Shown here: piece by piece, positions 18,956-20,974 of the stretch
How the letters are laid out: the number at the start of each line of letters is the position of its first letter
Numbering within the stretch: the first letter of the stretch is position 1
Source of the DNA: Natrinema pallidum DSM 3751
GTDB lineage: Archaea; Halobacteriota; Halobacteria; Halobacteriales; Natrialbaceae
Length of the DNA: 40,455 nt
NCBI RefSeq assembly: GCF_000337615.1
Contig: NZ_AOII01000069.1
Span: forward strand, 23,332 to 63,786
Direction: 5' to 3'
Notes under the pieces: generated by a model
What the model was told of the DNA's origin: nothing
Databases searched by the model: none
What the model saw: the letters and a program-made list of their open reading frames with translations, nothing else
Program-made: the position numbers and the translations under genes

Positions 18956-19175
18956 GTGCGGGGATTGGGTCTCAAGTCACCTACTAGTGCCGACGTCGGT
19001 TCGTGTCGCTCGTGGGCCGGTGGGCAACTGTTCATTCGAGCCGAGTATCCGTAAACCGGCTGTAAAATACCTGTGGCTGTGGTAGCCGTTTCAAAGAGGT
19101 TCGTTACAACGACGGGGGTTTCCAATTATCAGCGTCGAAGTACTCTACACAGATCAAAAACATGGATTCGAACCC

Positions 19176-19190
19176 ATTTATTTTAAAATA
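19176..19190 (+). promoter_or_regulatory. AT-rich promoter of the 117-residue membrane protein
   Basis: ATTTATTTTAAAATA lies about 33 bases upstream of ATG 19223. A GAGGTGA Shine-Dalgarno sequence at 19211-19217 adds a short leader, so translation here is leadered rather than leaderless. Confidence 0.5.
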
Positions 19191-19222
19191 GGGGAGAGTA
19201 TACCGGAATAGAGGTGAAAGGT

Positions 19223-19576
19223 ATGGATGAAAACCATCGATCGACTGGTATCACTATCATACTCCTCGGTATTGCGGGTATTGGTATTTTTGCCGTTGGT
19301 CCGTCCGGCGGTTCTAACAAGAGTACCGGAATCGCGGTCAGTACTTTCTTCGTCCTTTGTGGATTGTTCGTCTATTGGGACCCCGATATCGGAGAACTCA
19401 CGTCAGCTAGCTCTTGGGTCAATGGACTGTTTTGGATCGTCGTGGGTGTCGGTATTATCACGTTCGTAGTGATGTTTGAACCGACTCTTCTGTCGGTGAA
19501 AGGAAATGGCATCATCATCGGCATCTTTCTCACCGTAATTGGTGTATATCAGCTGATAGAGCTTCGACGCCAGTGA
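19223..19576 (+). CDS. Four-helix membrane protein in the halocin-like pocket
   Basis: The 117-residue product has about four hydrophobic segments (ITIILLGIAGIGIFAVG, IAVSTFFVLCGLFVYW, LFWIVVGVGIITFVVMF and IIIGIFLTVIGVYQLIEL). Its codon use is visibly less GC-rich than that of the surrounding housekeeping genes. ATG 19223 is chosen over GTG 19214 because GAGGTGA sits 5 bases before it. The gene faces the halocin-C8-like gene across a hairpin. No family recognised. An immunity or accessory role is possible only by association; the two genes are not in one operon. Confidence 0.65.
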   Translation: MDENHRSTGITIILLGIAGIGIFAVGPSGGSNKSTGIAVSTFFVLCGLFVYWDPDIGELTSASSWVNGLFWIVVGVGIITFVVMFEPTLLSVKGNGIIIGIFLTVIGVYQLIELRRQ

Positions 19577-19683
19577 CGTTCTCTCACGAGTGAACTTACG
19601 GAGTCGCCACCACAGACGGAGCCTACGCACGGCAATCCGCGGGATCGCTCTATCCATCCGAAAGTGGTGATACGAGTTCCAGA

Positions 19684-19710
19684 CCGATCGCACAACCATC
19701 GTGCGATCGG
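19684..19710. terminator. Perfect hairpin between convergent genes
   Basis: Ten-base arms CCGATCGCAC (19684-19693) and GTGCGATCGG (19701-19710) enclose a 7-base loop, between the stops of the membrane protein (19576) and the halocin-like gene (19792). A bidirectional terminator is the simplest reading. No T tract adjoins it, so another role is possible. Confidence 0.45.
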
Positions 19711-19791
19711 GTATGCGGTGACTCGCAATGGCTACTATCGATCGGGCCGGCTTGCCCCGGCAGAATAACGACCCGGAGACAATGAGATCAG

Positions 19792-20739
19792 TCAACATGC
19801 ACGCGTTCCGTACGACGAGCAAACTCGCGGACCGCCACACTGGAGGACACACACGAACGCCCCAACGCCGCTCGTGCTAGTCGTACAAACGGGCCCACAG
19901 GTCCTGCAGTCCAGTGCCAAACTGATGATCCAATCTGCACAGCTGGTACACGACGGTCCGCATGGACCAACGAGTTCCGACAGCTCCTTCGCGAGGAACC
20001 CTTCAGCCCAATCAATGATGATCCGTTTAATAGTCGAGCCGACGGCGGCAACCTCGACTTCGTCGACAGGTTCGACGGAAAACCGAGATTCAAACCCAGG
20101 AGTGAGTTCCTGTCGTTTCGAATCAAACGACCCCTGATCGACCGTGATGCGGAAACTCCGGACCCCCGTGTCACTCGTTTCCGCGGCTTCGATACCGACG
20201 TTCGCATGAAATCCATCGACATTGGTCCCAGTGAATACCTGAGCGCTCGCGATCTCACCGTCAACGTCGAGGGCTGACAGCACCAACTCTTCCTCTCGAC
20301 CGGTCGCAGGCCGTCTGAATATAACTCCCTCGTCGCTCCCGAGTAGCGAGCCAGCACCACCGGGGACTGACGGATAGTTCTTCGGAAGTTGCGACCGCTG
20401 ATCAACGTCGAATGCGAACATCGCACCGACTTCGCCGCCATATTTCGCGATGACGAGGGTACCGAAGCCGTACTCCGCTTTCAGCATCGACAGTTCGCCG
20501 TCTTCCCCGATCCGTCGCTTTTCGATGTACTCTGCGTTCGGTAACGACTGTTGATCAATTTCCGACAGTATCTGCTGGACGTGGGGATGTTCTTCGAGTT
20601 TCTTGACTTCGTCCTCGTCGACTGATTCAGCGCTAACTGGCCCAATTAACCCACTGATACCGATACTCGTGCCGATCGCGCTCTTTTTCAGGACCGCTCT
20701 TCGGCTCTGCATACCTGAGTTGGACTCTCGATCAGACAT
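19792..20739 (-). CDS. Halocin C8-like precursor (Tat-exported, ten-cysteine C-terminal domain)
   Basis: The 315-residue precursor has three parts. A Tat signal spans 1 to about 38 (SRRAVLKKSAIGTSIGISG, RR at 13-14, cleavage near PVSAES). A middle domain (about 40-250) has mixed beta/alpha character. A compact C-terminal domain holds ten cysteines at 260, 264, 267, 278, 281, 285, 297, 301, 307 and 315, the last residue being Cys. Halocin C8 precursors have this same plan: Tat signal, immunity domain (HalI) and a stable Cys-rich peptide with ten cysteines at the C terminus, released after export. The assignment rests on architecture and cysteine count. The proteolytic junction is not obvious; a site between about 225 and 258 would release a 57-90-residue peptide. 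ATG 20739 has a strong AT-rich promoter upstream. Confidence 0.82.
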   Translation of the reverse strand: MSDRESNSGMQSRRAVLKKSAIGTSIGISGLIGPVSAESVDEDEVKKLEEHPHVQQILSEIDQQSLPNAEYIEKRRIGEDGELSMLKAEYGFGTLVIAKYGGEVGAMFAFDVDQRSQLPKNYPSVPGGAGSLLGSDEGVIFRRPATGREEELVLSALDVDGEIASAQVFTGTNVDGFHANVGIEAAETSDTGVRSFRITVDQGSFDSKRQELTPGFESRFSVEPVDEVEVAAVGSTIKRIIIDWAEGFLAKELSELVGPCGPSCTSCADWIISLALDCRTCGPVCTTSTSGVGAFVCVLQCGGPRVCSSYGTRAC

Positions 20740-20771
20740 TAATTATCTATCTCTGTAATAAACACAATGCA

Positions 20772-20786
20772 TTATATTATTTTTAA
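20772..20786 (-). promoter_or_regulatory. AT-rich promoter of the halocin-like gene
   Basis: On the minus strand an A/T-only run including TTAAAAATAATATAA lies about 33-47 bases upstream of the ATG at 20739, in the most AT-rich stretch of the window. It fits a strong archaeal TATA element with a short untranslated leader. Confidence 0.5.
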
Positions 20787-20974
20787 GTATTTATATTGGG
20801 ATTAAAATAAGTATCGTGCGCTCCCAGATCGAGATCATTGAAAGGTGGCATCGACGGGACTAGTACGCTCACAACGGCTGCGCTTGCTACTGGTCGCGAA
20901 CCCTCGCAGCAAGTTCGGTTCGGGTCATCGGAGAACTCGAGTGCATCGGAAACTGCCCGATTTGACGGGTGCTA

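Follow-up and report, generated by a model that had tools for sequence, protein, structure and literature searches.

A putative halocin-like peptide precursor of Natrinema pallidum and its family of Tat-exported, cysteine-rich haloarchaeal proteins

The stretch of Natrinema pallidum DSM 3751 DNA analysed here (hereafter the window: 40,455 nt of contig NZ_AOII01000069.1, positions 23,332 to 63,786) carries between rtcA and mutL a low-GC insert with two convergent genes, P0001 and P0002 (Table 1). GC content is ~0.66 across the window and 0.56 within P0001, falling to 0.27 in the 100 nt upstream of the gene; the lower GC and AT-rich promoter had been taken at first pass as a sign of acquisition. 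We likewise read the insert as a small acquired cassette; its site is empty in four congeners. The palindrome between the two genes is a dispersed hairpin repeat, with 0-14 copies per Natrinema genome, and is present also in the rtcA-mutL insert of another congener, G004.

Table 1. Features of the rtcA-mutL insert and of the P0001 precursor, in window coordinates.
Feature	Coordinates	Strand	Basis
Low-GC insert between rtcA and mutL, 2,019 nt	18956..20974		rtcA-mutL gap 91-100 nt in four congeners
P0002, small membrane protein of 120 aa with four TM segments, encoded convergently to P0001; candidate immunity/accessory protein	19214..19576	+	3' small multi-TM gene enriched in family
Palindrome GATCGCAC-N7-GTGCGATC between convergent P0001 and P0002	19686..19708		dispersed repeat in 23/29 Natrinema genomes
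Precursor gene P0001, 315 aa, ATG start, stop included	19792..20739	-	23-40% identical homologues in 26/391 haloarchaeal genomes
C-terminal putative disulfide-ladder domain, residues 258-315, ten Cys	19795..19968	-	cysteine parity and co-loss across family
Inferred mature-peptide start and amphipathic helix, residues 232-257	19969..20046	-	alignment to V-x-[ST]-Q junction of relatives; helix 235-256 modelled at low confidence
N-domain of alpha/beta fold, residues 38-231, candidate for self-protection	20047..20628	-	AlphaFold2 pLDDT mostly >85
Predicted helix-loop-helix, residues 42-60, opening the N-domain	20560..20616	-	P0001 model; helices 54-65 and 68-79 in the same position in the model of the HalC8 precursor
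Tat signal region, residues 1-37, SRRAVLKK	20629..20739	-	family-wide RR; Tat model matches 17/27 relatives
AT-rich promoter region, GC 0.27	20740..20839	-	family median 0.335 vs 0.59 for other genes, p 1e-15

The layout of P0001 is the one described in the first-pass annotation. Its Tat signal is borne out by the motif SRRAVLKK with a hydrophobic stretch directly behind it, by two arginines with little or no variation across the family, and by matches of the NCBIfam Tat model to 17 of 27 relatives (the best at 1e-4; P0001 alone scores E 0.28, under the cut-off). A middle domain, put at roughly 210 residues, is present and spans about 190, and the ten-cysteine C-terminal domain ending in cysteine is there as described, its spacings C-x3-C-x2-C and C-x2-C-x3-C correctly given: all ten cysteines (260, 264, 267, 278, 281, 285, 297, 301, 307 and 315) fall within the last 56 residues, and the final residue is one of them. 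This plan is not a product of chance, as it recurs in relatives only 23-40% identical, and the cysteine motif written as a DNA pattern has a single match in the window, while 100 shuffles gave none. A collection-wide scan with a DNA pattern returned mostly chance matches in unrelated bacteria. Searches of the PDB with the structural models of P0001 and the HalC8 precursor gave no match to either, and a search of viral structure models with the P0001 model gave no fold match.

No family in Pfam or NCBIfam recognises P0001. A homology search across the class places homologues in 26 of 391 whole haloarchaeal genomes, from 19 of 86 genera, the last few of these genomes being weak matches (E near 0.005) that may reflect the Tat region only. 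Within the taxonomic family of N. pallidum, about 30 full-length members emerged when 125 genomes were searched by profile. Presence is patchy, extending to only a few of the 29 Natrinema congeners. Every intact relative combines a Tat signal, an N-domain and a C-domain with 8-14 cysteines, which typically reads C-x3-C-x2-C-x(6-10)-C-x2-C-x3-C-x4-[ST]GxGA-x2-C-x2-C-x4-C-x(7-8)-C-x2-C-x2-C. Ahead of it, a junction motif that we noticed after the fact, [VI]-x-[TASPV]-Q, occurs in 12 of 33 P0001-type precursors (expected ~0.5) and in 8 of 25 HalC8-type precursors (expected ~0.8), and this V-x-[ST]-Q-like motif could be a processing site common to both kinds of precursor; P0001 itself lacks the Q. 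Genome G112 holds both a family member split into two frames, i.e. an interrupted copy (L072, 9780-10999), and a local cluster of four family-like precursors and two related genes for 120-aa TM proteins within ~7 kb (L073, 6866-13982).

The cysteines of the C-domain are even in number (8, 10, 12 or 14) in all 39 distinct family members, and they disappear in particular pairs. C6 and C7 are both absent from eight members and singly absent from none (p 1.6e-8); C2 and C11, whose presence was judged by their constant distance to C3 and C10, are likewise co-lost (p 1.2e-7), as are C4 and C9 (p 1.8e-4; one member, L234, lacks C9 alone, probably through an alignment fault), and C5 and C8 are lost together once. 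When cysteine changes were mapped onto a tree computed from the remainder of the sequence, each of the 12 pairwise changes (5 + 2 + 1 + 4) placed the nested partners on one shared branch; any other pair coincided at most once. The remaining pairs, C3-C10 and C1-C12, are assigned by exclusion. Applied to the HalC8 family, the same analysis finds an even count in 42 of 43 members and nested co-loss of C3-C8 (both absent in four, single absence in none; p 8e-6) and C4-C7 (p 0.003). Even counts and loss in fixed, nested pairs imply a nested disulfide ladder, and the peptides of both families resemble hairpins held together by such a ladder.

P0001 is the sole exception to this pairing rule among the 39. 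By spacing it possesses C1-C10 only, and the absence of C11 and C12 leaves C260 and C264 without their usual partners; these two may instead bond to one another. This is a weak point of the P0001 allele, which may be altered or aberrant; the L070 and L081 genes, by comparison, have all 12 cysteines. As P0001 departs from the C1-C12 nesting, its membership of the ladder family is founded on full-length homology to the family alignment (A4), with conserved G93, R143, T146 and E149 and the cysteine core, and we infer its exact disulfides. A C-terminal frameshift was considered and rejected, since the other reading frames, inspected by eye, yield neither C11 nor C12 and restore no usual end.

As in the halocin C8 precursor (ProC8, that is HalI and HalC8), we find in P0001 features of Tat export, an N-domain opening with a predicted helix-loop-helix, and a hydrophobic, ten-cysteine C-terminal peptide domain that ends in cysteine; the families also have in common their nested cysteine co-loss and, in several relatives, a small membrane-protein gene on the 3' side, which the HalC8 gene itself lacks. 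Together with the low-GC insert and AT-rich promoter, these features lend good support to the likeness to the halocin C8 plan that was first proposed from the DNA alone, and P0001 likely works as that precursor does. To judge from the titles of two earlier papers, the helix-loop-helix at the N-terminus of HalI is essential for immunity (Mei et al. 2008, cited in PMC11509114), and HalC8 immunity is conferred through the one gene (Sun 2005, cited in PMC12893001).

A further suggestion of the first-pass annotation, that P0001 might be a divergent member of the halocin C8 family, is not supported. TIGR04449 (halocin_C8_dom) matches HalC8 at 1.1e-16 and matches neither P0001 nor any of its 26 relatives, and a profile-profile comparison of the two families over their full length aligned the Tat regions only. 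The P0001 family differs from HalC8 in its cysteine spacing, in having up to 12-14 cysteines, and in its C-x2-C-x3-C and TGxGA motifs, with no sequence match of either domain. With the Tat region removed, the two helix-loop-helix elements are superposed in the best N-domain alignment, and GxxC...C...C falls at the corresponding site in that of the C-domain. In 100 column shuffles neither score was reached, but the hhalign probability of these alignments is only 1-7% with a reversed control almost as high; for the N-domain it is ~1%, with a helix-loop-helix predicted at the same position in both. Given that TIGR04449 finds no match and neither domain profile a significant one, the P0001 family would seem, by the tests made, to be a separate family of the same kind rather than a divergent branch of halocin C8, with a remote kinship possible.

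HalC8-type precursors occur in 47 of the 391 genomes; the 283-aa precursor of G004 has a C-terminus identical to what we take to be the HalC8 sequence. The N. pallidum genome itself holds three of them, all on the minus strand (L061, 1318-2091; L062, 1546-2337; L063, 1250-2152), of which one scores under the curated cut-off; directly 3' of all three lies a gene for a small multi-TM protein of 65-125 aa.

In the slot that P0001 occupies, G004 carries a different Tat protein of 279 aa with ten cysteines (L262, 2698-3537, + strand), whose nearly palindromic spacing is 3,7,3,2,8,2,2,8,3; it is unrelated to P0001 by profile and has no family match. Such replacement of one precursor by another at a single chromosomal position illustrates the way in which these genes travel. 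The junction upstream of rtcA seems prone to insertion; several congeners (L271-L275) have a low-GC stretch and a gene for a 207-aa membrane protein there.

A recurring companion is the small membrane-protein gene. Within 900 nt on the 3' side, 16 of 39 family members have a small multi-TM ORF, against 24 of 203 background genes (p 5e-5), and on the 5' side 4 of 39; over half of the P0001 relatives have no detectable 3' membrane gene. In the HalC8 family such a gene lies 3' in 10 of 24 cases (p 7e-4). A Pfam and NCBIfam search of the small membrane proteins gave nothing above cut-off. As none of P0002's own weak homologues adjoins a precursor, it is by its position that P0002 becomes a candidate for a dedicated immunity partner.

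Our best explanation, at a probability of roughly two in three, makes P0001 the precursor of an antimicrobial peptide of halocin-like type, from a family separate from halocin C8. In the mechanism that we propose, the Tat system would export P0001 in folded form, and an extracellular protease would cut the linker near residue 232, ahead of the amphipathic helix, to release a hydrophobic C-terminal peptide of up to ~84 residues (8.6 kDa) held by its nested disulfide ladder. The acidic N-domain, with its HalI-like opening, might hold the peptide inactive or shield the producing cell, and the membrane protein P0002 could act as a dedicated immunity partner from its convergent position on the 3' side.

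Several other readings have to be set beside this one. The nearest is that P0001 is after all a true member of the halocin C8 family, with a common ancestor for both domains: the plan and the nested co-loss are the same, both models run in the order beta-helix-helix-beta-beta, and the best profile alignments of both domains fall at equivalent places and above column shuffles. The low hhalign probabilities, the near-equal reversed control, the restriction of full-profile alignment to the Tat region and the silence of TIGR04449 across the family make this rather unlikely in our view. Less probable again is a degraded or truncated, inactive gene whose end after about residue 300 was replaced, two cysteines being lost. 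It would account for P0001 alone of 39 breaking the C2-C11/C1-C12 pattern, and for its last 17 residues, which depart from those of L070, its near relative in the C-domain, and have a pLDDT <50 in the model; against it, the ORF is intact, the cysteine number even and the first seven cysteines conserved, and no other frame, by eye, restores the usual end.

A secreted, disulfide-rich protein with some role other than an antimicrobial one, such as adhesion, signalling or protease inhibition, seems to us about as improbable as a degraded gene. The N-domain has no known fold match, which leaves room for such a role, whereas the patchy cassette inheritance, the exchange with a different Tat/ten-cysteine precursor at one site, the clustering with HalC8-type genes and a 3' membrane gene as in bacteriocin loci all speak for an antimicrobial. 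Tat also exports cofactor proteins, and the CxxC motifs could be taken for those of a metal-binding or iron-sulfur protein; with even counts in 39 of 39 members and loss in fixed pairs, both indicative of disulfides, and no match to a ligand family in Pfam or NCBIfam, we regard this as very improbable. The halocin-like precursor remains our preferred reading, and it can be set against known halocins.

On plasmids the P0001 family has a single match, in pHl5678-1 of Haloferax larsenii NCIM 5678; PMC11509114 gives this strain for halocin HA3. The homologue there, WP_258303652.1, is annotated as hypothetical and has small TM ORFs convergent to it on the 3' side; beyond its VTTQ junction lie 137 aa of 14.5 kDa, and halocins HA1, HA3 and HA4 of H. 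larsenii are reported at 13-14 kDa (PMC11509114). The likeness is drawn from strain and mass, and we consider the plasmid gene a lead to halocin HA3 rather than an identification. Directly 5' of it lies an M48 protease gene and, convergent on the 3' side, a 71-aa TM ORF (L336, 10810-13494), candidates for a processing enzyme and a partner. A halocin C8-like gene with its own 68-aa 3' ORF is found 3.4 kb away on the same plasmid; the halocin C8-like protein of this strain is WP_206536420.1. Halocin H4 of Haloferax mediterranei is likewise made as an exported precursor; it is larger and, to our knowledge, not a cysteine-ladder peptide. Its C-terminal fragment is released by an extracellular serine protease (PMC12893001). 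HFX_0892 (HapP) is also a secreted precursor activated by proteolysis (PMC12893001), its active part being an N-terminal helical fragment, in contrast to what we propose for P0001.

To conclude, few halocins have known genes. The P0001 family, which follows the plan of halocin C8, has no entry in Pfam or NCBIfam and occurs in ~7% of the sampled haloarchaeal genomes, offers a ready list of candidates. Makarova et al. (mBio 10:e00715-19, 2019) reportedly expanded the halocin C8 group and predicted analogous archaeocins, and their lists may already contain the P0001 family. The nested pairing deduced from co-loss amounts to a specific disulfide map, open to checking, for this family and for halocin C8, on whose disulfide bonding we know of no publication; for HalC8 it predicts C1-C10, C2-C9, C3-C8, C4-C7 and C5-C6. 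The nested topology that the two share is the most interesting and testable result. A bolder reading, which we hold slightly less likely than not, is that Tat-exported halocins form a second large class in haloarchaea, barely if at all related in sequence to halocin C8: hairpins with a fully nested ladder of 4-6 disulfides in the HalC8 topology, which would be carried as exchangeable cassettes with dedicated small membrane immunity proteins and would include halocins not yet sequenced, such as those of H. larsenii.
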